The translations under genes were made by a program, and so were the position numbers. From the NCBI GenBank assembly GCA_010093515.1, contig MU001700.1, positions 122,434 to 186,433 of the forward strand: a DNA stretch of 64,000 nt, in the 5' to 3' direction. The notes beneath the pieces are model-generated. The model worked only from the letters and a program-made list of their open reading frames with translations. It did no database searches and was not told the DNA's origin. The stretch comes from Lineolata rhizophorae. Its lineage: Eukaryota > Ascomycota > Dothideomycetes > Lineolatales > Lineolataceae. Position 1 is the first letter of the stretch. The number at the start of each line of letters is the position of its first letter. Shown piece by piece: positions 5,065 through 63,919 of this stretch.

Positions 5065-5096
5065 GACCTTGGCCGATGACAGTGAGAGTTTGCTGT

Positions 5097-5555: not shown

Positions 5556-5625
5556 TGATGAAAGACTTTTATTCGCCAGTTTTCTCTCAATTTCCGACTT
5601 TCAAGCAGTCAAGGTGAAAGTTCAC

Positions 5626-41479: not shown

Positions 41480-41835
41480 GTCTTGGGCCCCTGAGGATCA
41501 AGATGTTTTCACGGCTGCACGATGCAAGGCCGAAAAGCCGCGACCAGTGCTGTACATGAGAAGGTGAGAGCGGCCCCGCTAACCCAAAGCCGGCTCCCGA
41601 CCATGCACGAGGGGAGGAATCGCCTTCGCCTGTTCGCGCTCAGCCGGCCGTTTCGCACGTTCGCAAGGCGAGAGGATGAAGCCAACTTGTCCCGGTACCG
41701 TCTGGAGGATCAAGATGTTTTTAGGCTACATGATACAAGGCCGAAAAGCCGAGAATGATACTGTACATGAGGAGGGTGAGGAGCGGCCCGCCAAACCCAA
41801 GAAACCAAACTCCCGGCTATGCATGAGGGGAAGAG
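41480..41835 (+). repeat. direct duplication, two ~140 bp copies, the second richer in A/T
   Basis: 41480-41617 and 41687-41835 share gaggatcaagatgttt, caaggccgaaaagccg, ctgtacatgag and catgaggggaag-type blocks in the same order. Many differences are C/T or G/A changes (for example gctgcacgatgcaagg versus gctacatgatacaagg), as RIP produces. It is noncoding and lies between FunK1 copy B and the RIM2 gene 3' end. Confidence 0.75.
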
Positions 41836-43627: not shown

Positions 43628-45759
43628 ATGGCGCTGCGGATCACGACGTGGAACGTCAACGGGATCCGCAACCCGTTCGCGCACCCGCCGTGGCGCGACC
43701 GCCGGGCCTTCGACGCCATGTTCGCCGTGCTCGACGCGGACGTGGTGGTGATGCAGGAGCTCAAGATCCAGGCCAAGGACCTGCGCGACGACATGGTGCT
43801 GGTGCCGGGCTGGGACTGCTTCTTCAGCCTGCCGAAGCACAAGAAAGGTCCGTCCGCCTCCGGCCTGCGGAAGCCCCCGCTGACTGACGCGACCCGCGTG
43901 CGCAGGCTACTCGGGCGTCGCCATCTACACCCGCCAGGCGTCGTGCGCGCCGATCCGCGCCGAGGAGGGCCTCCTCGGCGTCCTCACCCCCCCCGGCGCC
44001 TCGAGGCCCTACCGCGAGCTCCCCCCGGCGCAGAGCATCGGCGGCTACCCGACCGCGGCCCAGACGGAGGCGCTCGGCGCCGACCCGGCGCAGCTCGACG
44101 CCGAGGGCCGCTGCGTCGCCGTCGAGTTCCCCGCCTTCGTCCTCCTCGGCGTGTACGCGCCGGCCAACAGCAACGGGCTGCGCGACGGCTTCCGGCACGG
44201 CTTCCTGCGCGCCCTCGACGCGCGCGTGCGGAACCTGGCGCGCGCGGGCAAGAACGTGGTGCTGGCGGGCGACCTCAACGTGGCGCGGGCGGAGGTGGAC
44301 ACGGCGCGCGCGGCCGAGATGCTGCGCAAGGAGGGGCTCACGCACGACGGCTACATGGCGTCGCCGAACAGGCGGCTGTTCAACCAGCTGCTCGAGGGCG
44401 GCGAGGTGGCCGGCGAGCGGGACGCCGGGAGGGAGGACGCCGTGCTGTGGGACGTCGTCCGCGACGGCTTCCACCCCGGCCGCAGGGGCATGTTCACGCA
44501 CTGGGAGCAGAAGATCAACGCGCGGCCCGGCAACTTTGGGAGCCGCATCGACTACGTGCTGAGCAGCGTGGCGATGAAGGACTGGTGGGCGGACGCGAAC
44601 ATCCAGGAGGGACTGATGGTGGGCATCCCGCGAGTTGTTCACACCCGGTTTGCTACGCCGGCTCTGCGCGCTTGGCTAACCCGGCCGTCGTTCTCAGGGC
44701 TCCGACCACTGCCCCGTCTACGCCGTCCTGAAGCCTCTCGTCACCTTCAACGGCGAGCGGCGGCACCTTCTCGACATCATGAACCCGCCCGGCATGTTCG
44801 AGGGAGGGGAGCGCCTTCGCGACTGGTCCCCAAAGGACATGCCTTCGCTTTCCGGCCGCTTGCTGCCAGAGTTCGACCGGCGGCGCAGCATCAAGGACAT
44901 GTTTCAAAAGCAGCCCTCGGTTTCGAAAGGGGCGCCGACCGCAGCTCCTCCCCGGCCCGCGCCCACGGAGAGCGACGCGGGCCCCAGCGGCGAGAGCGCC
45001 GCGTGTGAGACTGCGCCGCACGACACTTCCCACCCTCAGCCCCGGCCCTCGCCCCTGTCTCGCGAGCGTTCTCGGCCTGGCGCCGGACGCCCCGCTCTCC
45101 CGCCGTCGGACAAGAGACGGCGCACAGGCGCCTCGTCGTCGGACTCGCCCCCCAAGCCGGCCGCCAAACGCGCGAGGCCCAGCGCGGCCGGAACGACCGC
45201 CGCCGCCCGCTCGGCCTCGGCGCCGGGCCAGCGATCGCTACGGGGTTTCTTCAAGCCCAAGGCTAGCGGCGACGACGCGACCGCCGCGGCGTCCGCGGCG
45301 GGGCCCGGGGCTTCGACCCCCCAGCCCCCTGCATGCCCTCCGCATCACCATCGCCATGACCACCACCACCGCCACCATTCCCCCACCAGCGCCGGCGCGC
45401 AAAGCGCCTCGCCCGCGCCGGCCGACCCCGCCCCCGCCGACCCCGGCGCCGGCGCCGCCGACCCCGGCGCTGCCGCCCCCGCCCTCGCCCCCGCGCCGTC
45501 CTGGGACAAGCTCTTCAGCCCGCGGGCGCCGCCGCTCTGCCGCGGCCACGGGGAGCCGTGCGCGCGGCACACGACGCGCAAGCGCGGCGCGAACCGTGGG
45601 CGGGCCTTCTGGATGTGCGCCCGGCCGCTGGGGCCCGGGGGCGCGCCGCGGCGCGAGTGCGACGCGGGGGCGTGGCGGTGTCGGACGTTTGTGTGGGCGA
45701 GCGAGTGGAACGGGGGCGGGGGAGGAGGGGGAGGAGGGGAGGGGGAAAGAGGTGAATGA
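43628..45759 (+). CDS. APN2: AP endonuclease 2 (class II DNA-(apurinic/apyrimidinic) lyase)
   Basis: Exons 43628-43847, 43906-44618 and 44698-45759 (introns 58 and 79 nt), 664 aa. Exo/endo/phosphatase domain: TTWNVNGIRNPF, VMQELKIQ, GVYAPANSNG, AGDLNVAR, SRIDYVLSS, and across the second intron GSDHCPVYAVL (catalytic His). The long disordered linker contains a PCNA-interacting motif QRSLRGFFK, a His-rich stretch and Ala/Pro repeats (PADPAPADPGAG). The C-terminus is a GRF zinc finger (LCRGHGEPC, GANRGRAFWMC, then ECDAGAWRC), as in Apn2/APEX2, which repair abasic sites and 3' blocks in the nucleus. APN2 normally flanks the mating-type locus in Pezizomycotina. Confidence 0.95.
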
Positions 45760-46145
45760 GGGGCGGCGAGGGGGGTGAGGGGGGGTGCGAGGGAAGGGTA
45801 AATTGGGGGGGGGGAGAAGAGATATAAAGGGGGGGCGAAGGGGATGAGGAGGGGCGGCGAGGGGGGGTGAAGGGGGGCGGCGAGGGGGATGAAGGGGGGG
45901 CGACGAGCGGAATGAAAGGGAACACGGGGGGTGAGGAGAGGCGGCGAGGGGGGTGAGAAGGGGGGGCGAGCGGAATGAAGGGGGGCGGCGAGCGGAATGG
46001 AAGGGGATGCGGGGGTGACGGGGGGGCGGCGAGCGGAATAGAAGGGGAACGGCGAGGGGGATGAAGGGGAATACGAGGGATGGAGGGGGGGGCGGGGGAT
46101 AGAGGGGGGCGCGAGCGATGGAGGGGCGCTGGGAATGAAGGGGGG
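45760..46145 (+). repeat. G-rich degenerate repeat tract
   Basis: Nearly 390 bp of runs of G separated by gcgagg, gatgaa or gaatgaa, directly after the APN2 stop codon. Many runs are four or more G on the plus strand, so several G-quadruplexes are possible in the APN2 transcript or the displaced strand. Units resemble ggggcggcgagggggatgaa with variable spacing. Confidence 0.85.
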
Positions 46146-46950
46146 CGCGGGGCCATTGCCGGACGCCGTTCCCTATAATAGTCTGCACTCATCGTGTGCA
46201 ATATCCCGACTTCGTGTTGCAGAGCTCGTTTTCCTTCCAGAAGCTGACGCGACTTGCACCACCTGCACTTATGCAACAACACCGATGCTGTTGCCTCACG
46301 CAACCAAGCTGCCCTGCTGCCAGACACTTGATACGCCTTCGCTTTCACGCCTCCCCTCAAAAGTTAGCAATCAGTTGCTGCCTCTCCACGCCGCCGTAGA
46401 AAAGCGACGTGGTTATTTGATTTTTTTTGTGCTATTTCCAGTGTTGTGCATTGATCTACAGCAAAGCCGGCCGGTCGCCGACGGCTGCAACATCCTAGAG
46501 CAAAGCCCGTCTACTCGGCGTGCTCGCGCTTTCGCATGCATCTGCTCGCGTTTCCCTTCGCCGATGCGACCGGTGACTCGCCTAGCTTCGCTGGATGCAC
46601 ATCTACCATTCGCCCCTTCCATCCCTCGCGCCCTTCCATCTCTCGCGCCCTCTCTATCCCTCGCGGTCCCCTCCATGCCCCGCGCCCCCCTTCACTCCCC
46701 GCGCAATGCAGCCAGGAGCTGGCGCCGACTTGGCCGGGCGGCAGACGGCTGCATGCAGCAACGCGCTGAACGGCGAGATGCCCGGCGTCGGCGAATCACC
46801 GTCACTGCCGAGCAGCCGAAGATGCAGCCGAAGATGCAGCCGACGATGCTAGCGTCGCTTAGGCCGGGCTGCTGCATGGAGGCTCTTGGTGCTCAGTGTT
46901 TGGCCAGAGCACGCGCCTTTCTTCTGTTGTTCACAGGCGTTGAAACACTC
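46146..46950. other. intergenic
   Basis: Includes a pyrimidine-rich tandem tract (about 46595-46700, units like ccatccctcgcgccctt) and a duplicated gatgcagccgaa at 46817-46850. A 273-codon plus-strand open frame spans it (46135-46956) but has no family resemblance and runs into the adjacent repeat. Confidence 0.5.
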
Positions 46951-47124
46951 TGTTGAGCGCTACAGCGTATACGGTGGCAAAATAGAGTGTATAAGGTGAG
47001 GTTGCAGAGTGTAGGTCGACCTGCACCCTGCGATCTATGTACGCTACACGCTGAACCGGGGCCGGCATTACCTTGGCCCCGAGCGTCACGTGTCTACTGC
47101 TGCCTTACATTGATATCCACGACA
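46951..47124 (+). repeat. solo-LTR-like repeat, copy 6, with perfect 5 bp flank duplication
   Basis: 174 bp with terminal TGTTG...CGACA, flanked by cactc on both sides (46946-46950 and 47125-47129). A 5 bp duplication with TG...CA ends is what LTR-retrotransposon integration leaves after recombination to a solo LTR. Confidence 0.82.
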
Positions 47125-47132
47125 CACTCTGT

Positions 47133-47292
47133 TGTCGAGCGTCGCGGAGCGTACGGTATCTAACTAGACTGTATTGACCGCGTTGCAGGGCCAGGGGCAA
47201 ACTCTACTCTGCAATCTGCGATGACTGCATGCAGCACGGCGCCAGACCGGGGCCGGCGCTACTTGGCCCCGGGCTCAGCTGCTGTTCTGCAT
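47133..47292 (+). repeat. solo-LTR-like repeat, copy 7, diverged
   Basis: Starts TGTCGAGCGTCGCGG three bases after the right flank of copy 6, and keeps the accggggccggcgct...ggcccc hairpin, but the 3' end fades near 47292. Adjacent head-to-tail placement with copy 6 suggests preferred or nested insertion. Confidence 0.6.
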
Positions 47293-47949
47293 CGCGATGG
47301 GGACAGAGCCCGCGTCTCTCCTTGCCCCTCTGTCGGCGCCATGTTGTCGCATGGCCTCGCCCGGGCTGGCAACGAATGCCGAAACGACGCGACGATGTGC
47401 TGCCAACGCGGCGCATCGTAGGTTGGCAGCGTCAGCGTTGCAGATCTGCGAGACCGCGCAGCCTCAACCGCATCACAGGGATCAAAGAGGAGCCTCAGTC
47501 TTCCGCATTGAGATGGATGCGCTCTTTGCGCCATCCCCGACGCGTAGCCACCCCTTTTCAGTGCACGTGGTCGACCGCGTAAAGAAGATCTTCCAGGACG
47601 CCTCCCACTGCACAGAGTTTGGACGCGACCAGCGCCTGATGCTATCGCGTTATTTGGCCGTTGATCGAGCTGCATGATGCTACACAACAACACCAAGTTT
47701 AAGCTTGGGAGCGTGTATGCCTTCTCTCATAAGCATTTACGTTCTGTGCTCACCAATCTCAGCGCATTCAACCGCGCCATCCCTCCACTATCCTCGAGCC
47801 TACCCTACGTCGCCTGACACAGTCGCACTCTGCTCCTCGTGCTCGTGTTTCGATTCCTATTTCGCGGAAGTGTACAAACAATTGGCGGCCGCGAAAGGGC
47901 CAGTTATAACGCGTACTCCTGACAACTGCACGCAACTACCAGGCTTTTC
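47293..47949. other. intergenic
   Basis: No recognised gene; open frames here have no domain resemblance. Confidence 0.5.
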
Positions 47950-48714
47950 TCGCACAGTGAGGTTAGGCCAGCGAATGCCGCTTTTAAGGAGGCGGAGCTC
48001 CAGCTAGGGATATGGATAGCAGCAAGCTTACGAAAGAAGATCGAGCTGGTCCCGTCTTGCCTTGCCAGTGCCTTGTCTGTCGCTGACGCCAACGCTAGAA
48101 ACAACCATGCCAATGCCGCCGTCACCAACGCCCGACCCTTGCATTTTGCAGTACTTCTTCTCGCTTCATGGGGAGGGCACGCGTGGGCACTGCTTTGGCA
48201 GTATGTTTTTCAGGAATTTAGGTGGGGGTTCAGCGCGGTACGGCCAAACTCCAATCCATCGATGACCCTCCATGCCACGGGCCATACCTATAAGCGGAGG
48301 GAAGATAGAGATCGTAGCTGACGAGCAGGACAGGCATGCCTACTAGTTTCCGTGATATCGTTGGACTCGCCGCTATCGGGCTAGCACAAAGCTCAGTGCC
48401 TATGGTCGCAGGCGTCGTCATATCAGCGCTGGGGTTCTCGTTTTTGGTTACCTTTCGATGCGCCATGATTGCTCTGTTCCCACGAACGCCGGTGGCGGCG
48501 CCATACGCTACGACGCAGAGCGGTGGCTGCCTCATCTCCGGTCCAGCCTTGGCCGCAGCGTTTAGTTGAAGACTCTAAAGGGGGTACCTGGACCGGAGCT
48601 CCATTTCTGCTTGCAAGCGGTCTGCACATCTTGACACTTGCTTATTTGTTCTCCCTACATCTGACTGAAGGCCCAGCCCAAGGCTCTCCTCTACCTGAGA
48701 GCGAGGAGTCATGA
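47950..48714 (+). pseudogene. major facilitator superfamily transporter remnant
   Basis: Plus-strand pieces in changing frames form the C-terminal half of an MFS protein: AAFKEAELQLGIWIAASL, LHFAVLLLASWGGHAWALLWQYV (helix), then FRDIVGLAAIGLAQSSVPM, VAGVVISALGFSFLVTFRCA, YATTQSGGCLISGPALAAAF, and DSKGGTWTGAPFLLASGLHIL with LTLAYLFSLHL. At least two frame changes and no N-terminal six helices. The sequence resembles fungal MFS proteins of the multidrug/siderophore-like kind, but the substrate class cannot be told. Confidence 0.55.
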
Positions 48715-49544
48715 AAGCAGTGGCTTCTGTAAGCACGGCACGTTGACCGGTTTCGAAAGAAGAACCGCCCCTGTGGCAGCGGCGCGGAGAAATACCAGCT
48801 ACACAGTGAGGAGCGTAATTAGCCGCCCTCAGCTCAGGATGTCACAGATCAGGCCCCCGAGCAAGGCGCCGAACAAGGCGCCGGCGATGCCAGTGCCGAG
48901 ACTGTCTCCCCGCTCGAGCCTCGGCGAAGCCCCTGTGAAGGCATGGGACTGCGGCAGCCTTGGTCATGTCGTCGCCGGGACAACTGCGAGGCCTCTGCGG
49001 CCACGCTACTGTAATGCTCCCTCAAGTCAGGTACGTTCTATTCTCAGCATCGACCAGGCTTTGATCTGATACGCAGAGTTTTCTGACGCTATAATTCAAC
49101 GTCATAGTTTCAATCGCTACCTTGAGAAGTCGCAGGCGGCCGTGGAGAGATGGATGAAGAATACCAGCTGTACGGTGACTAGAACACCGAGTCTTGTAAA
49201 AAAGTTCGACCAGTCGCATTGAAATATCGGGAATAAATTTACGCTCAAATGGAACCATCAACCTGAGTGGAACGCACTTGAAGAGCTTGTTGCTGGGTGC
49301 TAAGTGAAAGACAGAAGTTGAATTCGCTGGAGAGCTATCTGATGATGCCAGTGGCGAAGATATACCGTCCTACCACCTTCTCCCAATCTTGTCCCCAGAA
49401 CAACCAGCGGCAAAGAGCAGCGGCAGCGGCCAAGGGAGTAGTGCTGATGCTGATTCAAGTGGTGTGCAAGGCGGGGATAAGGAAAACTATAGACATGCCA
49501 GCTTGCAGCGCAAAGTGAGACTGATCGAGCCATGCTGAGATACA
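48715..49544. other. intergenic
   Basis: Downstream of the MFS remnant and of the SRPK-like remnant 3' end. Short frames only; nothing recognised. Confidence 0.45.
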
Positions 49545-50852
49545 TCAATCATGTTCGAAGCGGCTAAACAATCTTTCGAGCTTATAAAGCACTCGGTTGA
49601 TCCTTGGACACAAACTGAGTAATAAATTCATCGAATACGTCCTGGGCTGACGGTCTCTTCCCGGAGCCGGCGCAAAATTTTGCGTACGAGGACGAGGAGT
49701 AGCTTTCTGTCTTTGCCCTTCAAACGTATCTCGCGCAATCCAGTTGCCTTCAATCGTCAATCAAGTCCCAACAGAGACGCGCTAGTTCTAACCCCAGGGA
49801 GAACGTACCTTCCGAGTCCCAATGCTGACGACATCGATTGCTACGCTCCAGAAACTACTTCGGTGGGGGTTCCATGCGAGGAACCATCTCAGCAAAATGA
49901 AGTTCATCGTTCAGGTGACCATCTCTGACGGCGCCAAAGAGATTGCCGTCTTCGAGCAAGTTCCAAATCTTCAAATATAAGCGCATGGAATGAATTTGAA
50001 TGCGTTGCGATGCGTACCATGACACCAACAGACCAGATATCTGTCAGAGTCCCACTCCATGCTAGCGATTACCTCTGGCGCTCTGAAAACCCCGCGCATG
50101 ACGTCGCATGGTGTAGGAAAGATAGATTATACGACACCCGCTAATACCTTGCGCGGCGATGGCTAACAGTTTCGGCCTGCTCAACCTTGGACACTGCGGC
50201 AGCGTCGGCCCCGACTAGGATATTGTTGGGCGATAAGTCTACGAGACTCCTTCGCTGGCATACTTCAATATGCCTAAGTACGGCGACGAACCTGTATGCA
50301 CTATCCCCGCCTGGTGCAGAAAGTCTAGGTCCGTCACCACTACGAGCAAAAATTTCCGCACGAGTGTTTTCTCAAGAGCCCTCTCCTCGAATAGATCTCA
50401 CAAATCGGTCAGGGTTAAACCTAACGTCGGGAAAACCAGGCATTGGTGAGCCCCATAGGGCCCTCTAAAACTAAAGTCGTCCAGTGACACGCAGTCGTTC
50501 CTTGCCGGGATGCTCCGTATCGATGGATTTAATATAGTGAGAGATAGCCACTTCCTGAGTACTATCCGTTCCAATGATACAGTCCCTGGGGGTAGCTAAG
50601 GTGTTCTCGCTTGAGAGCCGTTAGGAGAATACTACGGAAATACAGGGGTTGGGGGTTGCTCAGCTAGACAGTGAAGGCCGTACCAAAGCCCAGCTTCGCG
50701 ACGACCTGGTACCTTGACTGGAAGACCTCGCCTAGGCGGACGGGGCAAAACTCTCCAGCCTTGTAGCCAATGAGGTTCTCCTCTTCGAACTTTTCATTCT
50801 CCAGGAGAACGGGGAAGCCGTCATTCGGGAAGGTGCGAGGCTGAACAGACAT
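49545..50852 (-). pseudogene. SRPK-like protein kinase, heavily interrupted
   Basis: From ATG 50852 the minus strand reads [37 protein letters not shown] and [17 protein letters not shown] (glycine-rich loop), then a stop. Pieces in other frames follow in order: EHPGKERLRV, RGPYGAHQCLVFPTLGLTL, LEKTLVRKFLLVVV, DFLHQAGIVHT, NNILVGADAAAVSKVEQAE, LTDIWSVGVMV, LLEDGNLFGAVRDGHLNDE and HFAEMVPRMEPPP. These are the ordered blocks of fungal SRPK-type kinases (YPVRLGEVF...YGTxSTVW...DIWSxG). Several stops and frame changes are present. A solo-LTR-like copy lies about 140 bp upstream. Confidence 0.65.
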
Positions 50853-50989
50853 GTTGCTTGCGGAACGGTCCATCATCCACCGCTGACCAGGTCGCCAAGG
50901 GAGTCGAAGAGGAACGATGCAAGTCCAACGCAGGGGGCGGGAGGCCGTGGAATAGCCAATCCTATCGTCGCCATGGTTGGAAAGGCAAG

Positions 50990-51150
50990 TGTCGTGGATA
51001 TCGTAGATGGCAGCAGTAGCACTTGAGTTCGAAGCCAAGTAAATGGCCGCCCAGGTCTAGCTCCGTGCAGCATACGCAGATCGCAGAGAGCAGTTGCCTA
51101 ACCTCGAATGTACTCTGTCTCCGACACCGTACACTCTGTGACGCTCGACG
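50990..51150 (-). repeat. solo-LTR-like repeat, copy 8, inverted
   Basis: 161 bp, the only copy on the minus strand (starts TGTCGTGGATATC on the plus strand). It is flanked by gcaag at 50985-50989 and 51151-51155, a second clear 5 bp target duplication. It sits in the 5' flank of the SRPK-like remnant. Confidence 0.8.
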
Positions 51151-52270
51151 GCAAGGAATCGGATGGTAAGAGGACACATTGCCGCAGCTCGCCGCCTGCC
51201 CTCGACCCGAGCTTGATCCACCTCGACATGGCGCCACAGCAGGGAACTGGTGCTACAAAGCTAAATCGAAGCTCTCAAAACCGGGTCTAGTGCTGATTCT
51301 GATGGCTTTTGAACGGCAATTCAACCATCAGCCCGCTCCGTATCCATAAGCGGTCAAATATTATTGTTCAAATGGCATCCCAACTGCCAGCAATCGGCAT
51401 GTCCGCAGACATTCATCATTCTGTGGCGCAGCAAAGTTGCAGGAATCCATGAGCTGGCATCGAACTACAACTTGAATTCTCATTAGGAGGTGCCGCTAAA
51501 GCTACCAACTCTATTCATAGGCTCCCTCTGCTTCGGTCTAGGCGCTTTTTTCCCTGAAAATCTGTTTCGATATGGATTGTGCTGCCATTAAACAGATTAC
51601 ACTTCCAATACATTTCAACTCCACAATTTCTAACATTCCTGCACGCCTTTTCACACCTTCCATGCCTGTAAATCTTTAATCTGCGTGTAAGGTAAGTCAT
51701 TTTCGTCTAAAGAACTGTTCTAACCCAAGGACGGGAGGTCTGATGCCAATGTATGTATGAACCATTTTTCCCACGTGTGCAGAGCAGGCATGAATATATA
51801 CCTGGTGTTGCTTCAGTAGCTCGCACTACAGCTAATACAAGGGGGGGAACGAACTGGCTGAGACTCACCTCCTGCGCACACGGCGCATAGAGATCTTTTG
51901 TATAAGAAAACTGAGTGGCAAAGTATGTGAGTCCCAGCCTGTTCATACCCCCTGTTGCGCAAGGCGATCTTGGTGGAAGGTGGTAGGGGGCCTCCGCATA
52001 GAGCTCTTAAGTGAAGGCGAGGCGCATAAGTTGCGCGAAGGGTGAAGCCTTAGCAGCTAAGCCTTAACAGCTAAATCCTTGGCCGGCGTAGCGGCTTCCT
52101 CCGTCTCGTCTTCTTCTCCCCGTCATCGATTCTCCATATCTCGTCGCAATCCTCGCGCATGGTCCTCTGTCAAGCCCGCCGATGTACGCAGGGCGACTGC
52201 ACTGAATTTTCCCTCGACCCCCACACCTAGCTCAACCGTTCCAGTATTTCGCCTTCGTCCGCGGCTTGCC
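51151..52270. other. intergenic, AT-richer
   Basis: No recognisable gene. A short duplicated ttagcagctaa motif occurs at about 52052-52075 just before the next gene. Confidence 0.45.
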
Positions 52271-53569
52271 ATGGCAGCGTATATCAACCTTAGCTTGCAA
52301 GGTACGTTGCCATTATAATACAGTCATAAATGGCCTGTACTTCTCACGAAATACCAGGGACGGTCTATTTTGCTGCACATCGTTCTGCCGAAGACGGCGC
52401 CATGCTGCAACTGTATTCAAACAGGCTTGTGGGCGTAGTAAGAGGTGCGTAATACCATCATCGCCCTGCATAGGCGGCAAAAAGCGCTCATGGACGTAGA
52501 ATCCACCTTTGATGTTTTGTACTCGAGTGTTGCCCGAGATTGGCATCAGCAGGACGACGTCGTTACACCCTTTAACGGCCGCCGATGGATTCACGTTGGA
52601 GCGGTTTGGACCTTTGACCTGGATAGCGCCATCCTGCGATTGGACAAGAGAGATCGCAACCTTTGGGTTCCTCTCGACCTTGTTTGCCAGCGTTCCATAA
52701 CCATTTCCAATTTCAAGCCTTACGAACTACCACAGACACTCGCCAAACACTCCTTACAATCCGTCTACCCAGCGCTGTGCTGGAAAATGAGATGCAAGGG
52801 AATCGACCTGCGGTACCTACAGCGGCGCAAGGTTTTAGTCTCCAGGATACTCGTCGACTTTGCGTTCCAGTAGAGGCACGTCCTCTGTGGTCGTTACAAC
52901 AACTCTACGTTTTGAAGGCTTGCCTATGCTATCGTCAGGATTGTCACCCTGGACTTTACCGTCGAAGAAGCAACGCTCTCACGCCAGGGCACTGGCGGCT
53001 TCTTGGTCTGGATAAACAACCTCCCAGAGTGGGACTTTGCAAGTGGAGACATTGTCAGGGTCGGTGGGACGTCCATCGTTATATGCCAGCATGCTCCACA
53101 TGCCGTCACGTTGGTCCGAAAGGATTTCGCGAAGCAGATCCAGTCCACTCCCGGTTCGGCGGACGAAAGTCTCACTTACCTTGTACTCTCGGTGCAGGAG
53201 CTTATCCTGTATCGGATAAACAGCGAACTCGAAAGATATACGGAACCCAAGCGTCTATTCGATGGGACGGGTCCTCCTTCTGATGAAGCCATCGAGCTCC
53301 TTCTCCAAGCCACGCAGACCAGCGCCCCTACGGCATCTCTTCGCAAGCTCCCCGTTGAGCTGCAGAATGCGATCCTTGACAAGGTATCAGCGGGACCAAT
53401 TGAGAGAGCTAGGGTTGGCTGCCTGCTTGACGCTGGGTCAGTTTTTGCATGGAGATGCGGCAACCGAAACATTGAAAGGGAAGAAGGTCGTCGGTCTAGA
53501 ACGCCTTGGACTCCCGTGGAGTCGCATATTTGGTTCGGTGGCTACCCTAGTGGTACAGCATACAAGTAA
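52271..53569 (+). pseudogene. lineage-specific fungal hypothetical protein, one frameshift and two stops
   Basis: Exon 1 (52271-52301) MAAYINLSLQ; a 56 nt intron (52302-52357, GTACGT...CCAG); exon 2 GTVYFAAHRSAEDGAMLQLY. The frame changes near 52440, then EVRNTIIALHRRQKALM, TFDVLYSSVARDW, VGAVWTFDLDSAILRL and DRNLWVPLDLV follow. In-frame TAG (after LVDFAFQ, 52871-52873) and TGA (after YNNSTF) interrupt; both fit TGG to TAG and CGA to TGA. It continues GTGGFLVWINNLPEWDF, SIVICQHAPHAVTL, SLRKLPVELQNAILDKVSAG and GRRSRTPWTPVESHIW to 53569. I know the family as fungal hypothetical proteins without function. Its 5' exon and intron are duplicated at 5.4 kb. Confidence 0.65.
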
Positions 53570-56500
53570 ACGTGTTCGAAACGCACATTGTAAGATAACA
53601 GTCTGATCTACCGATCTATCGCACAGTAGGAAGCTTGACCATTGCATTGGCTATCGATATGTCGTGAGTCGTACTCCCTAGATATTAGGCAGGATGACCA
53701 GTACATGTTTCAGATCACACTAATCGTGGATACCCCTTACAAACCAATAGAGAATCCGAAATATCTCCCTTCGACGATCACCCGATATTGGCTGTACGAT
53801 ATTCATCATACCCATTGACAATAGGCTGTCAATGAGACGCGCCATGATTTTATCGCCCCTATTCTAGCGGAAGTCATCAGCTTTTTCCACCGCTGGTGAT
53901 AGAATCTTGCTGGCATCGACTCTCGGACCGATCTCCTATTCAGCTGGCTCGGACGCAACCGTCTTCAGCAGGACTATGGCCTGAGGCTGCTCAAGTCCCG
54001 ACTCCAGGACTTTACCGACGTCGTCGAATCTCCACCCGAAAAGTGCCTAAAAGGCACGCATGTTGAGTGAGTCTTCCAAGGTTCTTGCAGGTTCTACACC
54101 AGCTTCAGAAGCTTGGCTCTCCGTTTGGACGGAGTAATCGCCGTATCATAAACGGACCGCCAGCTACGCTGTGGAAGAACAAGGCGGAAGAGGAGTTGCT
54201 TGGATCTGACGAGTAGATGAGTCTGCCATCCGCTTGGATTTGATGTTATCATGCTGCAATAGCAATATCGAGGTAGCTAGGACACGATAGCTGTTCACTT
54301 GTTGATACTTCCTAGCTATCTTCGATCTTTCACATCCTTCAGTCTATCACACTTGGATGTCAAGCGCTATCAAACGATCTGTCCGGCTCTCGACTCATTA
54401 TTGGCTGAGTGAGCATTCTGAGAGAAAAACGCTTTGGGTGATTCGCTGCCGATCGAATTCAAAGACTTTTCAGACTACATAGAAGTTGATTTGCAGCTAT
54501 GCATCATCTATGACGCCCGGGTTTATAAGAGGTCGAAATCTTCCTATGAGACGGCATTTTGATTGGCGGGATAACGTTTCGTATATTCAAGGCAGAAACT
54601 CGGGCACACGGAGGGATTTTTTTCAAATATGGTTATTATTACAAGGTTGGTTAGGTCGTTACTTAGACCCATCGTGACTGACACAGTCTCCAAGCGCAAC
54701 CTCATCTTGAAAACTGGCCCTATAGAAGGACCCCAGGGATCCTCCGAATCTGAATCACATTCTAATCTTTTTCGAGACCGGCTAGCGCGCCGGTATCTTG
54801 TGTGGGCATATTCTACCGAGTTCTTGCCATCACGCTGAGTTGAACTCCCAGAAGTCCGATCTAGTCTGATCCCCTCCGATTCCAACATTCAGGTGAGCTC
54901 GACAAGATTTCCGCAACACCCCCTGTTGCTTATAGAAATACAAGATGTGCGCCGACCAGGTCGCCCATTTCGCTTGCGTAGCGAAACACATACAACGCGG
55001 AGAGCACCCGCTACGAAAGAAACATATCGCGAAGTCAACGGAAGCGCGACGTAACAACCGTCCAGTATGCGTTTCTCCGCGGCCTGAAGAAGACGATAAT
55101 GGGAATGACGAGGACGACAAAGAATTTCCCGAATGTCGTGGGGAAACACCGTCAGAAACTCCGTGAGCAGCCTACCATTAGAATCCTAGACACCGAGTCG
55201 AACAAGACGTGGAACAGATGCGAAAAAGTACTAAGCAAAGCACTGCATGGCACTTTTCAATTCCACGAATATCTCTTGCTCCTCGCGAGCTCCCCAATGA
55301 TACATGGCATAGTACTCCCTGGCATGTAAGCCATCTTCAAGTTACCTGATCCATGTCGAAGTCTGGAGTCGCATGGGAGAAATCATATCCCTTGGTAGAT
55401 ACTTCTCCATTGAACGGACGATGGGAGATTCTTTCGCAGAATATCCTCGCTGTCGTATTCTGTCGATCTTGCGGGTTGCCTGGAATATCAGCAACCTGAA
55501 CCCAGAGGATGATGCGAGCTGGACGATCATCGCCCTTCGCGAACGCTATAGCATTGTCTGCGTGATCTTCGAAAGCTGAAAAGATTTGCGGAGAGAGTAT
55601 TGGGAGGTGCGTCCGTTGTTGTCGAAACGAATCGTGGTGTAATCAGCGGCTCAGAGTCGAACCGAAGAAGAGGCGCATGCGGACGAGAATTGAAAGGATG
55701 TGAGCTTGAGGGGGCTGGCAGCGAGAAATCGTAGGACAGAATGACTCGTGGGATCTCGAGAGTCAAAGTTGCTGGTAAATTGAGGACAAGTATAGAAGAT
55801 GAAGACATTATCATGAGCACTCAACCTCGCTTGGATTCTATTTTTGCCCCTCTACGGTTGCCGCACCTTATAGATTGCTAAGCATTGGCTACAGCTTGAA
55901 GAAAAACAGCAAAACTAAAGCGGAGACATGCGCCACCCAAGCTGAACGAGCTTCCTGCCCTCCCTACCCTTCACAACTTACCATCTCACTGAGTACAGTT
56001 TGCTCCCCGCCTCTCACCGTCCTTTACAACTCACTCAATTCGCTGCCCGCCTCTCCTCACTCGTTATAACTTGCCTCCTCACTCTCTACCCTCTCCGCCT
56101 AGCTTTACCGCGTCCTCAATATGCATCTCGAGTAGTCAGCTAGCCGTTAGCATTGATAGCGGTCCCACAGATTTGCCCAACTGCATACTCTTCTTACTGC
56201 TCGATCTGATCCTGAATGATGCTCCGCAGAATTCCATGGGGATAACTCAAGTCGCTGCATGGGAGGCAAGTGACAAAGTAAGCTACCCACAAAAGCCATT
56301 CGAATAGGGAACAGATAATACGCTTCTTCGACTTCATTGAAGGCACCCAATAGGTCATAGTCTTCGTTTTCTGGTATGCCCTGATTGGAGCAGATCCGAA
56401 GTCCCTCGGCTGCTACGGGCGGAGCTCGCAAATCATGCGAATTGAATCGCGCCGTCTCTGCGAAGCTGTCGCACGCGTTGTGCTTAGGTCCTCTGTCGGT

Positions 56501-58245
56501 TGCTAGGGCGGCACGGAAGCACGAGAAATCTACCTAACAAATCGAATGCTTCTTCTATCGCTTCCTGAGCAACAAGTTTTCATAGTCTTCAGAGCTGCAC
56601 CGGCCTAGGAAGAGACCCTCCGGTAATCTAGCGATGATACGTGTCCAAGGCCTCAGACCTCTAGTGAGACTAAGCTGAGGAAACTGCAAGGTTGCGACCG
56701 ATTGGACCGAGTGGCACGAGTCCTCGCGCTTCAAGATGGTTCCGACCGTCGTTAAGCCGCTGCGGAGAGTCGGGTGCGCAAGTAAGTTCTCGATATAGCG
56801 GCGTAAACCGGCTGATGGCTATATGAAACTGCAGACTTCTGATGGTTCAATGAGGACATCTCGTAACGATACCACTCAAGCCCCTCGCTGTCGCCCATCC
56901 ATCATCCTGCATCACATCGAACGAGAAAAGACCGGGATCAACCTCGTGATCATATAATAACAGCAGATTCATGCAGGACAACTTGCCGATGCTCTTCCCT
57001 TCAGGCGGAATCGTCGTCTATATCGGCATCGCGATTCAATGAACAAAGCCGAAAAGAACGCAGGAGATTCCGAGCTCCAAATCACCGACAGGATAAATCA
57101 GTGGAGAAGATCATTGAAGGCTCAAACACCGGCTTTCTGATTTTTGCTATGATAGCCCTCGTTCCTGAACTTCAGCTGTTGATGGAGCACGAAATTCTAC
57201 AGCCACCATGTAAGATCCCCCTCCATAGATCTTTTACAGACCCTTACAATGGGATCAACGGCTCAAATACCCTGTCGGCGGCCCTGAAAAGGCGGATCGC
57301 AACTCTCATCGCCACATTGTCGCTACAATCTGCATGCGAGCTCGGCGCGCGCGATCCTGACTTCGCATGGCCCGTCTTCCGCGCCTTCTGGGCCGAGCTC
57401 ACTAAGCCGGGCCTGGGCCGGCCGCCGGTGATGACTAGCCGACAAATCCCCTCCATTTTCGCCACCGACTGCCGGAGCAGCGCAGGGAACACTACATACT
57501 GAGCATTGGTGCGTATGCCATCGCATTGCTAGGCTGGAGGGCGGTGTTGTATTGATTGCTAGTGAATTCTGAGTCCACCAAAATCCTTTTTTGCTTTGAG
57601 ACATGAGCGTTTGTGATAGCAGTCCGAGCGCGTGGACCAGCTTCACGTCGGCGGAGAGGTACTCCGTGGGCCCTTCCAAATCATCTAGAAAGTGCAACAG
57701 CAGATTGGACATGCCACTTACGCACACCTAAGGACCCGGCGCACTGGACCTGCCTGCGGCGAGGCTCGCCAGCCCGTCGAGCGCCAGCATCGGATAGTTG
57801 TCCTAGAGTAGCCAGACGGGTCGGTGTGACCATGGATGAACGTAACCATGGATGGACGTGTGCACAATCTCCCAGACACACTGATGCGATAGAGAAATGC
57901 AATCTTGAATTACGAATGCAAGTGTTCTCACGCGAAAATTGGAATCTTGCACGCCTTCCCAAGAGGCGACTGAAGTTACCATCGCCAATTCTAACATGTT
58001 CCTCCTGAAGCTTGCTGCAGCAGCGACAATGTGGCCCTGCACACGAACGCCACTCTAGCGGTCTACGTACTAGGCACTCAAGAGAACGAAGGAGCACAAG
58101 AAGGAACGGAATGCAAGAGGCAGGAAAGGCTGGAGCAGCAGGAGGGGTAGGCGCAAAACGGCAAGAACTGATCCACTCGGTGCCTTGTAAACGCTACCTC
58201 CGATTGGAGACCCAATAGTGGGTTCCAATTCTCGTCCGACCGTCG
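53570..58245. other. 4.7 kb gene-poor region
   Basis: Mostly AT-richer sequence with short frames. A plus-strand stretch at about 53905-54070 (RTDLLFSWLGRNRLQQDYG and KSRLQDFTDVVESPPEK) looks like old coding sequence, as does 57101-57727, but no family is recognised. A pyrimidine-rich tract with ccctccctaccc-type repeats lies at 55950-56110. No MAT, SLA2 or COX13 sequence is visible here. Confidence 0.5.
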
Positions 58246-58339
58246 TTGTCACACCCTTCGCTAGGCAGCTGCTTCCGGGGTGGCGGTCAGCCGATTAAAA
58301 GCCCAGCTTTGCAATCGCGCTCCCACCTTTTCTCTTACT

Positions 58340-58680
58340 CCTCCACGGTCCTCACACCACCTCCATCACTCCCATCACTTCCACCCTTTCCACCATCTCC
58401 ATCCTTTTCATCGTCTCCACCCTTCTCACCCTCTCTATCCTTTTCATCATATCCACCCTTCACGCCCTCTCCATCCTTTTCATCATATCCATCCTCCTCA
58501 TCACTCCTATCACTTCCATCCTTTCCATCGTCTCCATCGGTTCCATCGATTTCATCAGGCTCCATCGGTTCCTTCATTTTCACCGCCTTCATCACTTCCA
58601 TTCCTTCCATCACTTCCTCCACTCCCATCGTTTTCATCGCTTCCCTTATTTCCATCGTTCCCCTCACTTCCAAACAAGGG
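58340..58680 (+). repeat. degenerate pyrimidine-rich minisatellite (catctccatccttttc type)
   Basis: About 340 bp of short units such as ccatccttttcatc, ccacccttctcacc and ccatcgtctccatcg in all phases. The plus strand is almost free of G. Open frames across it are a by-product of composition. Confidence 0.85.
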
Positions 58681-58834
58681 GGACAACGCTTGCACCATTG
58701 GCGTCATTCGTTGCCCACCCACATCTCCCGGTCGTCAGCCGGTTCAATACATCTTTCCGTCCTCTCGGTGGCTTCCGAGTATCCTCCTGGCACCTCGGGT
58801 CCCTCCCGAGGCGCCTAGCGAGTCGTCTCTTCCG

Positions 58835-58935
58835 GCCGAGTCATCAGCTCTGGCCGAGACAGCTCCGGCCGAGTCGTCTGCCCCAGCTGAGTCGGCTCCG
58901 GCCGAGTCAGCTCCGGTCGAGTCAGACCTCACCTC
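58835..58935 (+). repeat. 15-18 bp tandem repeat (ccgagtcggctccgg type)
   Basis: Five or six imperfect units such as gccgagtcatcagctctg, gccgagacagctccg, gccgagtcgtctgcccc, gctgagtcggctccg and gccgagtcagctccg; noncoding by present evidence. Confidence 0.85.
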
Positions 58936-59291
58936 TGGTCTCACCTACATTCATTGCCATTCACAACACCTCAAAGGAGGAGACCCAGTCTCCGGCAGAA
59001 GGAGGAGACCCATTCCCCGGCGGAAGGAACCATTCTCGCATCGAGAATGAGTCCTTCGCCGGTGGTGTCCGGTCACACCCTCGAGTGTGCCGGGAAATGA
59101 ACTTCGTCACCTTCTCACCATTCAAAGACGTGAGGAGATTCCAGTTTGCGGAAAAGAGCCGGTACTGTGTCTGCTGCTCCCCTCATTGTGCTTGTCATAA
59201 GACTAACGTTTCTTGGTGCAAAGCTTCTTCACTCATTCTTTTCAGCCAAACGTGGCCATCATTGTCGTCTGCCTATGTGCTCTTCTTCGAC

Positions 59292-59518
59292 ACAAGTCAG
59301 CATCGTCCAGTTTTGGAAAACCTTGCCAATGACCCCGCCCTTCTCCCACAAGTCAGCATCGTCCAGTTTTTGGAAAACCTCGCCGACGACCCCGCCCTTC
59401 TCCCACAAGTCAGCATCGTCCAGTTTTTGGAAAACCTCGCCGACGACCCCGCCCTTCTCCCACAAGTCAGCATCGTCCAGTTTTTGGAAAACCTTGCCGA
59501 CGACCCCGCCCTTCTCCA
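59292..59518 (+). repeat. 57 bp minisatellite, four copies
   Basis: The unit starts acaagtcagcatcgtccagt and is repeated at 59292 (56 bp), 59348, 59405 and 59462. Copies 2 and 3 appear identical, copy 1 lacks one T. In frame it would encode a 19-residue unit containing VSIVQFLENLADDPALLP, but the 56 bp copy shifts frame, so translation is unlikely to be conserved. Confidence 0.95.
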
Positions 59519-59523
59519 CCTCT

Positions 59524-59935
59524 TCCACCCTCAAGCAGAACCTCTTGCACGAACTATGGATACATCATTCAGTGTTGGACACTTTCCAGACGACGGACCT
59601 CGCGGCCGACGAATGCATTCTTTCCTCAGTACACCCTCAACCAGGACATCTTGCACGAGCATCATTCAGAGTGGGACACTTTCCAGATAGCGACCGACGA
59701 ATGCTTTCTTCCTTCGACCCCACGCTCAACCACGACATCTTTCCACCTCTCCCACCACCTCACAATGGCGGATCCGGCCGCCGGCGAACCCGTCCTTCCC
59801 GTTGCTTTTCTCGCTCCCAACTAGGGCCTTTTGCACGCGCTATGGGTACATCGCTTAAACCCGTCACTCCGCCAGCCAGGACCTCTTGCACGAGCTATGG
59901 GAACATCGTTCAGTGTTGAACGCTTTACAATGGCG
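59524..59935 (+). repeat. longer degenerate repeats with ctcttgcacgagctatgg core
   Basis: Blocks containing cctcttgcacgaactatgg, catcttgcacgagcat, ccttttgcacgcgctatgg and cctcttgcacgagctatgg occur at about 59529, 59647, 59825 and 59880, each followed by a diverged acatcattcagtgttggac block. They continue the repetitive zone begun at 58.3 kb. Confidence 0.75.
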
Positions 59936-61065
59936 GATCCCGCCGTCGACGAAGGCGTTCTTCCCTTTCTCCTCATCTAGCGAAGCCCATCTGAGGGGAG
60001 CATGGGGTAACACCAGGTTTGAATGGCACACTAGCAAATAGATTTCTCGCCAGGAAAGTCATTTCATTGCCACGCAAGCGTGTCTGCAAGCATGGACATA
60101 GATCTTTTCCCCAGTGAACCCTTACGTCTTGTCCACTCCACTCCGCTCCACCTCAATACAAAATCCATGTTTCTTGTCACAGCATCCGAAGCGGTCGAGA
60201 AGTGAATGTGAAGTAGCTCGTCACTTGTGCGAGAGGATGGTACCGTGGAAGTTCGACGATTCCAGCCGTCGATGCCCTCATGCTAGATGACGGAAAACGT
60301 TTCCCTGCGTGTGTTTCATCATTTGCTTCCTACAATTCGTTGAAATTGAGTCTCCATATTTCACTATAATTGAGTGTCTTCATCGCTTTGCAAGTCAAAG
60401 CAGAGGGTTCGTCGTGGCATTGCTCGTACGAGAGTAAGAAAGAAAAGGAATCGAGACTGAAAGACAGAGGAGAGTGAGGACTCTGACCCTGAGCATGTAG
60501 CGGATAGTCAACAAAACATTATTCCAGTCGAATTTAAGCCCGTCATTCATGCCCACTTCAATTAAGATCTTAATACCCGCGCTTGTTTGGTGCATGTCCC
60601 TTTTCCACTAAACCGATAACGCAATAGAGGCCGATTCCGCTCCTGTTCTTCGACAAGAAGTTGGACATTCTCGCGCACGAATAGCACATTCCTGCGCTAA
60701 CCCCGGCAACCCCAGGAATCGTCGCCAGATAGCCAATCGCCATCGCCCAGTCGCCTGCGGACGAGCAGCAACAACACCGCCTCCGCTTCTCGCCCCGCCG
60801 CCGAGCCGGGGTGCAGCCGCTATCGCGGATCCGGCGGTCAACCCCTGTGGAGTTGAAGTGTGTTCTATGCACATCCCCCCTGATAACGTAAGCGAGTCTA
60901 GGCACGCCAAGCAGCGCCCTTCCCAGGCCACGCTTAAGCGAGACACACGAATCATCACAGCCTCCGTGGCCAATCGGATCGCAGCCCAGGGATACTCCGT
61001 TCTCGACACGAATCGTCGCCGTCGCCTTCTTCTCCCTCCCCAGGCTTTCGCTCGTCCCCCCCGCC
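59936..61065. other. intergenic leading to APC5
   Basis: Composition shifts back to GC-rich near 60700. It contains the second copy of the 24 bp string (60880-60903). The region just before 61066 is pyrimidine-rich (cgtcgccttcttctccctcc), as expected of a fungal promoter/5' UTR. Confidence 0.55.
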
Positions 61066-63919
61066 ATGGGGCGCTACCTCACCGCCCAGACCGTCGCCCT
61101 CCTTGTCCTCACCTCCCTCTACTCCACCTCGGCCGTGCCCACGTCGGCCGCCATCGCCGTCCTGCGCTTCCTCACTGACCGCACCCTGCTCGACGGCCAA
61201 CCTCCTTACTCCAACCCGACCTCGTCCGTCGACGACGAAGACGCCGACAGCGATGGCTACCCCACCTCCACCCCCGCCGACTTCCACGCCCTGCTGGGCA
61301 AGCTTCAGTCCACCAGGCCCGGAAGGACGGTCCACGACCTCTTCGTCGACGCCTTGTGGCGCATCGACAGCATGGCCGCCTTGAACGCCTTCTTCGACGG
61401 CCTCCCCGACCTGATCAAAAAGAAGACGAGGCGAGACTTCGATTCCGAGCTGGACTCTCCGGAGCCCCCGCCCGGACCGCCGCTGTTCCCCCTTATGGGG
61501 GGCGGCCAGGAGCAGCCGCCGAGCTCCGGGCGGGGAGACGGCGCCGGCGCGCGCATCTGGCTGTTGCACAACTCGCCCCTGGGATGCTTCGTCCGCAGAG
61601 CCCACGCCGAGTTCGCCCGGCTGCCCTTCCACGGGGCCGCCGTCTTGTGGATGGCACTTCAGCGCTTCCGCATCCGGGTGCCGGCCGTGCCGAGAGCAAG
61701 CCACGTCGCCGACGTTGACGATAGCTCGGATCGCGCCGCGTCGCGGAAGGCCCTCTGGAGCGTCGCGTACGCCGGCGAGGGCATCGCGCCCGGCGACGAG
61801 ACGAGCCCCGACGTGCTCCGCCAGGGCATGGTCAGCGACACGGACGTCGAGCGACTTCTCTACTTCGCCGTGTCGCGCCTCGAGAGGCTCGGCAACCGCG
61901 TCCCCGACGCCATGAAGGCGCGGATCGAGCGCATGCTGGACCCGTCGGCGCCCGCGTCCAGCCTGCTCCATTTCGTCCGCTTCTTCGACGCCTGGCGCGC
62001 CGGCGACCGGACCTCGGCCTTCGACCACCTCCATCGCTACTTCGACTACACCATGCAGACTCCGGCCGCCGACCGCACCAACTACCAGTACGCGCTGCTG
62101 CACACGGCCATTGTGCAGGCCGACTTTGGCTGTCTGGGAGAGGCCGTCTCGGCCATCAAGGAGACCATTGCCACGGCGAGGGAAAACCACGATTTGATAT
62201 GCTTGAACTTCAGCCTGGCCTGGGTCGCGCATTTGGGCAAGGCATATCCGCGGCAGATGAGGGACGCGGGCGTAGGCGGTCTTATCGGTGGCGGAGGGTC
62301 CGAGAGGGATGGAATCATGTTCTTGAAGGCCAAAGCGCGCGAGAGCCAGATGTGGGGGTTGCTGAGTTCGTCCTTATTAACGGAGGCGAGGATGGAGCTG
62401 GCCAACGGAGGGAGCGTGGCCAAGGCCATCGAGCTCGTTCTGCAGGCCCAGCATCTCATCGTTACCTGGGATACCAAGGAGAACGTAGGGACGAGTATGC
62501 TGATGATGGCGTCCATCTTTAGCAGACTAGGTTCGTTCCAACTCTTTTCTATCCTAAGTTCCTTTCTGGCCTAAGTTCAGGGAACATGATCGTTTACGTT
62601 CGTTGACGGCGATAGGACTCGAACATTTATCCGACCTTTACTGCGAGATGCTTCTCGAGAACTACGCCCACACCACTCCTCTCGAATCGACCCTCAATGC
62701 CGTCTGCCGTCGTGCCCTATCCGTAAGCCACCCTCTCTCAACTTCTCTCCCCCCTCCTCCTCTAGCGCCCCCTCGCCACACGCTCCCCAGCCATCTAACC
62801 GGATCCAGATGGCCCAGTCGGGCGACACGAAAGCCGCCCTCGCACTCCTCTCGGCCTTCTCCCCGCGCGTCGACCGCACCCTCCGCCTCCACCAGCTGTT
62901 CACGACACAATCGGGCCTCATCCGCGTCCGACAGGCGCTCCGGGCCAACCGCCTCCAGGAAGCCTCGGCCCTCCTGCGCGCGCTGCGCGGCGCCCCGACG
63001 ACCTCCCCGGACGCCGCCTTCCACGCCGCCTGTCTCGAGACCGACTGCCAGCTGCGCGCGGCGCGTCCGCACGCGGCCATGGCGTCCCTCGCGCGCCTGG
63101 TCGACCAAGCCCAGGGCGCCGACGCCGACGTCCTCGAGCGGGTGACGCTGCTGGCGCTGAAGGCGAGGGCGTTCGCGGCGGCGGGGGAGCCGGCGGAGCG
63201 CGGCTTCGGCGTCGCGGCGCGGGCGGCGGCGCGGGCAGCGCGGGCGGGCTGCGTCGGACACGGCCTGTGGAGCGGCACGCTCGAGCTGGGCGGCGTGCTG
63301 GCCGGGCTGGGCGAGTGGGCGGCCGCCAGGAGGCTGTGCGTGGCGGTGCTGCCGCACGCGCTCGAGGGCCGCGACCCCGGCTTGGTGGCCTCGCTGTACG
63401 CCCTGCTGGCCGACGCGGAGATGGGCGAGGCGGCGGGCCGGCCGGGGCCCGGCGGCGGCGACGCGCCGGCTCCTCCTGCGGCCCAGCAGCAGGCGCCGTT
63501 GGTTTCGGCGGCGGATGTGGCCGTCGAGCGGGCGAAGTGCTGTGAGCGATTCCATTCCTCCTCGCTCTTCCCCTCTGCCGTTCGCCTCCCCCTCTTCCCT
63601 TCTTCCGTTCGCCTTCCACCCTTCTTACTTCACCTCTTTCCCTCTTCCCTTCACCTCTTCCCCTCTTCCCTTCGCCTCCCCCCTCTCCCCCTCTTTTACG
63701 CTTCCCGCGGTGCTCGAGCTAACACTTGGACAAGACTTCAGCCGCGTCGAGGATCTCGCCGGCATGTGCGACATGCAAGCGAAGAAATCGTTAATCGCGC
63801 GGGTTCGAGGAGACTACGAGCGGGCGGAGGACTGCGCGCAGGAGTACCTGGCGCTGTCGCAAGCGTTTGACGGGGGGCTGGAGGAGGAAATGGCCAAGAC
63901 GGATATCATTGAGGTTTGA
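61066..63919 (+). CDS. APC5: anaphase-promoting complex subunit 5
   Basis: Exons 61066-62530, 62616-62722, 62809-63541 and 63735-63919 (introns 85, 86 and 193 nt; the last uses an AAG acceptor after a GCTAAC branch), 829 aa. Apc5 is a TPR scaffold subunit of the APC/C ubiquitin ligase that drives mitotic exit. Legible family blocks: YLTAQTVALLVLTSLY, GCFVRRAHAEFARLPF, the Apc5 core SSLLHFVRFFDAWRAGD, YQYALLHTAIVQADFG and ETIATARENHDLICLNFSLAW, then TPR helices (SALLRALRG, KALAAAGE-like) and the C-terminal DLAGMCDMQAKKSLIAR. APC5 is usually close to COX13, APN2 and MAT in Sordariomycetes. Confidence 0.92.

Follow-up and report, generated by a model that had tools for sequence, protein, structure and literature searches.

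A probable dispersed mating-type neighbourhood in Lineolata rhizophorae, with APN2 and APC5 far from a MAT-type HMG-box gene on one contig

APN2 and APC5 are usual neighbours of the mating-type (MAT) locus in filamentous ascomycetes. A 64,000-nucleotide stretch of the Lineolata rhizophorae genome, here called the window, carries both genes about 15 kb apart, and the original prediction saw no MAT, SLA2 or COX13 gene between them; it proposed that the MAT neighbourhood had been rearranged or expanded by repeats, or that MAT lay outside the window or had been lost. Where, then, is MAT in this genome, and how did its flank genes come to stand where they do? The window corresponds to positions 122434-186433 of C31, a 320-kb contig that makes up 1.03% of the assembly (30.97 Mb in 48 contigs). 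Unprefixed positions below are those of the window. We examined 206 kb of C31, of which 42.6 kb are unassigned bases (N), 28.4 kb of these beside MAT. The analysis concerns one genome and compares it with published loci of other fungi. We conclude, with a probability of roughly 0.8, that C31 holds a dispersed mating-type neighbourhood in which a likely MAT1-2-1 gene stands with COX13 and CIA30, the APN2-APC5 pair lies far to the right and SLA2 is elsewhere, an arrangement most likely reached through rearrangement and insertion.

A MAT-type HMG-box gene outside the window

The two flank genes of the window are intact and lie on the same strand, as had been predicted.
43628..45759, plus strand: APN2 (DNA lyase 2), intact, three exons, 664 aa
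61066..63919, plus strand: APC5, intact, four exons, 829 aa, Pfam ANAPC5 at 1.8e-32

Spliced models with exons 43628-43847, 43906-44618 and 44698-45759 for APN2, and 61066-62530, 62616-62722, 62809-63541 and 63735-63919 for APC5, contain the terminal stop as their sole stop. Pfam recognizes Exo_endo_phos on two overlapping open reading frames (ORFs) of APN2 (1.5e-10 and 5.5e-5) and the GRF zinc finger (Zn_ribbon_GRF) at 8.5e-6. Whole-genome searches with the APN2 catalytic region and with ANAPC5 gave a single match each, namely the genes of the window. The gap between them (45760-61065) measures 15.3 kb and is contiguous, since the window has no N.

Pfam was run over all 119 ORFs of this interval that, read from stop to stop, reach 60 aa and are contained entirely in 45.7-61.1 kb; edge-crossing ORFs and exons shorter than 60 aa fall outside that set. 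HMG_box, MATalpha_HMGbox, COX6A and I_LWEQ had no match among these ORFs at E ≤ 0.05. Ten further families each hit a single ORF, with PDDEXK_12 the strongest at 7e-5. The known core motifs of the HMG and alpha boxes were likewise absent from all six frames of the window. A comparable scan elsewhere on C31, serving as positive control, does detect the likely MAT HMG exon (6.3e-6). The predicted absence of MAT, SLA2 and COX13 between APN2 and APC5 is thus borne out for the domains and ORFs scanned.

Searches beyond the window located a MAT-type HMG gene and the only COX6A match on C31, to the left of the window, and I_LWEQ on contig C4. The surroundings of the HMG gene are as follows.
C31:~73.0-73.9 kb, transcribed away from the HMG gene: divergent gene left of it, no family at E < 0.05
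C31:74388-75559: MAT-type HMG-box gene, three exons, 355 aa, spliced protein with HMG_box at 4.2e-13
C31:75.77-76.6 kb: hypothetical gene right of the HMG gene, start not visible, possibly 5'-truncated
C31:77353-78075: ORF of CIA30, 3.7e-40
C31:79035-79223, minus strand: COX13, sole COX6A match of the whole-genome search
C31:80083-80529: ORF of a PX-domain (sorting-nexin-like) gene, PX at 1.3e-21

The HMG gene is linked to CIA30 and COX13 (C31:74.4-79.5 kb) and contains, at C31:74871, the one MAT-type HMG core found by a motif search of the loci examined at that stage and the window. The genome has 10 HMG-box loci (11 pieces, merged by hand), so that by our estimate one of them would fall within 5 kb of COX13 by chance in about 0.3% of cases. 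The second intron (C31:74944-74996) splits a serine codon (T/CT) within the HMG box, and an intron at this serine codon is described as conserved in MAT1-2-1 (PMC3961304). Judged from the sequence, the gene is most likely MAT1-2-1, in label as in function, and its protein would be expected to set mating type in the ordinary way. The likely MAT locus is C31:~73-75.8 kb, with the HMG gene and the divergent gene. At ~C31:75.77 kb the G+C content, taken in 200-base windows, rises from 43% to 70%, and it drops to 55% and 42% further right; this jump might, tentatively, mark the edge of the idiomorph. A search for another copy of the hypothetical gene next to the HMG gene found none. MAT therefore most likely lies outside the window, as the original prediction had allowed, and its suggestion that MAT had been lost finds no support.

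The order on C31 is MAT - COX13 - APN2 - APC5, with CIA30 between MAT and COX13 (COX13 at 79.0 kb, APN2 at 166.1 kb and APC5 at 183.5 kb of the contig). Measured rightwards from the HMG gene, the distances are 90.5 kb to APN2 and 108 kb to APC5; from COX13 they are ~87 and 104 kb. The stretch from COX13 to APN2 spans 86.5 kb by ORF edges, 12,977 bases of it N. The whole-genome search for I_LWEQ matched only C4:1068969-1069479, in two pieces. C4 is 1,564,135 bp long, with over 490 kb of it on each side of SLA2, and no MAT motif was found in C4:1046001-1096000 around it. With SLA2 on another contig and APN2 that far off, the HMG gene is not flanked by APN2 and SLA2, nor does the contig hold a compact APN2-COX13-APC5 neighbourhood.

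What fills the gaps

The interval between APN2 and APC5 contains repeats and gene debris.
45713..46147, no strand: G-rich degenerate tandem repeat tract that starts within the final APN2 codons and extends downstream (Tandem Repeats Finder rows 45713-46151)
46946..47129, plus strand: solo-LTR-like repeat (LTR, long terminal repeat), 174 bp at 46951-47124, TG start, CA end, CACTC on each side (5-bp target duplication)
49974..51056, minus strand: broken kinase gene, in four fragments that are collinear with the ORFs at C31:96310-97432
50990..51149, minus strand: decayed older copy of the same LTR-like repeat, reversed, 72-77% identity to other C31 copies
52283..52416, no strand: dispersed repeat, 134 bp, matching C31:127859-127992 (window 5426-5559) at 98% identity in the opposite orientation
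58352..58672, no strand: 9/18/36/72-bp minisatellite
59291..59517, no strand: 57-bp minisatellite, 4 copies, 97% matches

Most of what the original prediction had listed here is recovered: the G-rich tract, which Tandem Repeats Finder places at 45.7-46.15 kb, the solo-LTR-like repeat with its TG and CA ends between CACTC copies, the broken kinase and the minisatellites, among them the one with four 57-bp units. Its broken major facilitator superfamily gene had no Pfam match and is not confirmed.

The repeat has the TG...CA ends, the many copies and the 5-bp target duplication of a solo LTR. At 174 bp it is short, and it may belong to another type of short element. The repeat search scored 40 of 70 candidates, and genome-wide counts are lower bounds. 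At least 44 matches exist in the genome, the query included; among the matches listed, four of the 43 others are 100% identical over 175-176 bp, and the insertion is therefore recent. The repeat is enriched on C31, which carries 7 of the 43 non-self matches among those listed (8 of 44 with the query) where 0.44 would be expected, and it had no copy in 25 loci elsewhere (121,515 bases, two of the loci overlapping and the choice non-random). The fragments of the broken kinase share 43-58% identity with the ORFs at C31:96.3-97.4 kb (E 1e-7 to 2e-12), and one of these ORFs, the relative at C31:96.3 kb, matches Pkinase at 4.9e-7, narrowly missing the curated cut-off.

Repeat-induced point mutation (RIP) was considered as the cause of decay and rejected. 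Against the usual index thresholds, the dinucleotide ratios carry no RIP signature: TpA/ApT is 0.68 and (CpA+TpG)/(ApC+GpT) is 1.25 in window 46200-61000, compared with 0.61 and 1.20 in window 1-41000.

The longer gap between COX13 and APN2 contains further ORFs.
L017:6700-9126 (in C31:86.7-99.5 kb), minus strand: FunK1 ORF, 809 aa
L018:8478-9542 (in C31:86.7-99.5 kb), plus strand: divergent septin-like ORF

The idea that the neighbourhood had been expanded by repeats thus holds in part. The LTR-like repeat is enriched on C31 and one copy with an intact duplication sits in the interval, but the extra DNA consists only partly of repeats.

Ancestral order and alternative histories

How the flank genes came apart depends on where they started, and published fungi do not share one order. 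Most Botryosphaeriaceae of one study have APN2-CoxVIa-APC5-CIA30 as a collinear region in that order (PMC8905617). In a table for A. niger, MAT is followed in turn by Apn2, cox VIa and a gene of the anaphase-promoting complex; CIA30 stands at the opposite end, and slaB lies over 12 kb from MAT (PMC8454179). The order is COX, APN2, APC, SLA2, MAT in Ceratocystis fimbriata (PMC3961304) and SLA2-MAT-COX13-APN2 in Grosmannia, where MAT and APN2 are over 10 kb apart (PMC3583454). The MAT flanks of Trichoderma hold APN2, COX13, APC5 and a CIA30-like gene (PMC5608430), and in Hypomyces perniciosus APN2, COX13, APC5 and CIA30 all lie upstream of MAT1-2-1 (PMC6627653). Taken across these loci, APN2, COX13 and APC5 lie near one another, and linkage of APN2 and APC5 is widespread.

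A series of rearrangements most likely lies behind the layout on C31. At least one would have moved SLA2 away, since its position on another contig calls for a rearrangement whichever the ancestral order was. COX13, APN2 and APC5 would then have spread apart, by insertion alone if the ancestor had a Ceratocystis-like COX13-APN2-APC5 order, and with a further inversion or transposition if in the ancestor COX13 lay between the other two. The gaps would have filled with LTR copies and with members of an expanded kinase family in decay; the space from APN2 to APC5 now holds 15 kb of decaying accessory DNA. The predicted rearrangement is accordingly supported at least for SLA2; for COX13 relative to APN2 and APC5 it turns on the ancestral order.

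The strongest competitor is that the ancestor already had MAT-COX13-APN2-APC5, that insertion alone spread these genes and that only SLA2 moved. The order on C31 agrees with MAT-COX13-APN2 of Grosmannia (PMC3583454) and with COX, APN2, APC of Ceratocystis (PMC3961304), and copies of the LTR-like repeat occur in both gaps. However, COX13 stands between APN2 and APC5 in the Botryosphaeriaceae (PMC8905617) and in A. niger (PMC8454179), CIA30 sits between MAT and COX13 here, and the ~87-kb stretch, which includes a septin-like ORF and many kinases, is not made of repeats alone. We regard expansion without such further moves as a serious possibility that falls somewhat short of even odds.

The layout is an uncommon form of a familiar locus. 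It shares its genes with the MAT1 loci of other Pezizomycotina, the HMG gene standing beside COX13 and CIA30, and differs from them in the ~87 kb between APN2 and COX13, the 15.3 kb between APC5 and APN2 and the location of SLA2 on another contig (PMC8905617, PMC8454179, PMC5608430, PMC6627653, PMC3961304). Grosmannia clavigera resembles it in having COX13 between MAT and APN2 and more than 10 kb from MAT to APN2; there, SLA2 stays beside MAT and no transposable-element evidence is reported (PMC3583454), whereas here SLA2 is unlinked and the gaps hold LTR-like repeats and decayed kinases. Neofusicoccum also has MAT apart from APN2 and APC5, either far from the APN2-COX-APC5-CIA30 region or placed on different scaffolds, but its four flank genes are collinear (PMC8905617), while those of Lineolata are themselves split up. 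As in Eutypa lata, where MAT1-2-1 is linked to neither SLA2 nor APN2, SLA2 is unlinked to the MAT-type HMG gene; unlike there, MAT stands next to COX13-CIA30 and shares its contig with APN2 (PMC9007359). Valsa mali and Chrysoporthe likewise have COX13, APN2 or APC5 rearranged relative to MAT, with the difference that flank genes moved inside the locus (PMC5386874, PMC10298223), whereas here APN2 and APC5 lie far outside; COX6A and APC5 are described as not linked to the MAT locus in C. zambiensis (PMC10298223). Moved MAT flanks thus have precedents in Valsa mali (PMC5386874), Chrysoporthe (PMC10298223) and Eutypa lata (PMC9007359). A literature search returned no paper treating the mating-type locus, COX13, CIA30, APN2 and SLA2 together, and we make no claim that the arrangement is unpublished.

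APN2 and SLA2 often guide the search for a MAT locus, so a genome with neither gene beside MAT could be scored as lacking one. COX13 and CIA30 are the useful signposts here.

Several observations speak against a dispersed neighbourhood around MAT1-2-1. The HMG core reads RPANRFIIF, as compared with RPPNAYI translated from the MAT1-2-1 primers for Ophiostomatales (PMC3583454). The examined part of C31 has three N runs.
C31:19404-20633: N run
C31:42731-71122: N run of 28.4 kb, left of the MAT-type HMG gene
C31:109457-122433: N run of 12,977 bp, ending just before the first base of the window

The second run, beside MAT, could hold further MAT genes such as MAT1-1-1. The link from MAT-COX13 to APN2-APC5 crosses the third; should this run be a scaffold gap, the 87-90 kb would rest on scaffolding. 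Finally, among the six full-length copies of the repeat in the examined part of C31 a matching 5-bp duplication is found only at the copy of the window; the five others lack an identical one, as older copies may.

The first two of these points would fit the MAT1-1 idiomorph, with the HMG gene as MAT1-1-3, the divergent gene as a fast-evolving MAT1-1-2 and MAT1-1-1 in the left N run. The neighbouring gene is indeed transcribed divergently, the 28.4-kb run sits where MAT1-1-1 would be expected and the HMG core departs from RPPNAYI. Yet the intron in the serine codon is described for MAT1-2-1 (PMC3961304), and no family matches the pieces of the divergent gene below E 0.05; these include a frame change for which no good splice site was seen by eye. 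The MAT1-1-2 profile PF17043 had no match, a weak negative because the controls gave none either; the alpha-box profile matched nothing in the genome, with its controls equally silent and the negative equally weak, and a degenerate alpha-box core motif had two matches, both of which we read as chance. With an HMG gene that has the serine intron, no alpha box and no MAT1-1-2 detected, MAT1-2 is the likeliest idiomorph, and we think MAT1-1 unlikely.

Reduced recombination around MAT has been discussed generally (PMC7898863), and C31:~73-186 kb might be a young, expanded MAT-linked stratum in which repeats and kinases build up through reduced recombination, the scattered flank genes being its footprint. 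A third-position G+C of 0.87-0.94 in APN2, APC5 and RIM2 counts against this: if it stems from biased gene conversion, GC-rich third positions point to frequent rather than suppressed recombination. The stratum is a doubtful proposition. The layout lends itself to asking whether scattered flanks accompany repeat build-up and reduced recombination around MAT.

An assembly artefact, in which scaffolding wrongly joined or separated MAT-COX13 and APN2-APC5 and the true locus is more compact, is suggested by the three N runs. The window is free of N, so the 15.3-kb gap is contiguous, and the equally N-free C31:71123-109456 holds the HMG gene, CIA30 and COX13 without APN2 and APC5. As each side is contiguous, COX13 and MAT are separate from APN2 and APC5 whatever the scaffolding; SLA2, besides, lies deep within C4. 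We consider an artefact quite improbable.

Accessory genes and other features of the window

C31 carries a kinase-rich set of accessory genes, several of them in the window.
4168-5139, minus strand: APH-like phosphotransferase ORF
8271-9509, minus strand: FunK1-type kinase match, full profile, three in-frame TAG, broken or intron-interrupted
16803-17633, plus strand: APH-like phosphotransferase ORF, under the curated cut-off
30410-31036, minus strand: APH-like phosphotransferase ORF
39611-40963, plus strand: FunK1-type kinase match, full profile, one in-frame TAG, broken or intron-interrupted

Three of the 25 hand-merged FunK1 loci (33 pieces, the weakest perhaps other kinases) lie on C31, where 0.26 would be expected, and two of these three have in-frame stops, which are possibly intronic. 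The APH-like ORFs are part of this set, and the contig also carries other kinase ORFs, a PD-(D/E)XK gene and DUF7924. Eleven captain-like (tyrosine-recombinase-like) DUF3435 pieces, eight of them with in-frame stops, are spread over C31, C18, C27, C17, C21, C9 and C1; they are possible remnants of Starship-type elements. That such a giant element brought the accessory kinases and split the neighbourhood, as the captain-like pieces in the genome and the FunK1, APH-like and PD-(D/E)XK genes of C31 might suggest, is most improbable, since the sole C31 piece (C31:285528-285902, one in-frame stop) lies ~99 kb right of APC5, outside the COX13-APC5 stretch (whose N run is unreadable) and thus not at an end of the insert, and since one of eight hand-merged captain loci on C31 gives P 0.08, no search for element boundaries having been made.

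The other neighbour of APN2 is RIM2, as predicted.
41893..43143, minus strand: RIM2-like mitochondrial carrier gene, three Mito_carr stretches (Pfam, E 2.7e-66), ORF open to its stop, adjoining APN2

A 52-nt direct repeat (81%) lies just downstream of RIM2, at window 41513-41564 and 41724-41775. Third-position G+C is 0.94 in RIM2, 0.91 in APN2 and 0.87 in APC5; the SLA2 ORF, at 0.65, and the MAT-type HMG gene, at 0.47, contrast strongly with these. An O-methyltransferase-domain ORF at window 26170-27156 (plus strand) has a third-position G+C of 0.89 among ORFs of lower G+C.

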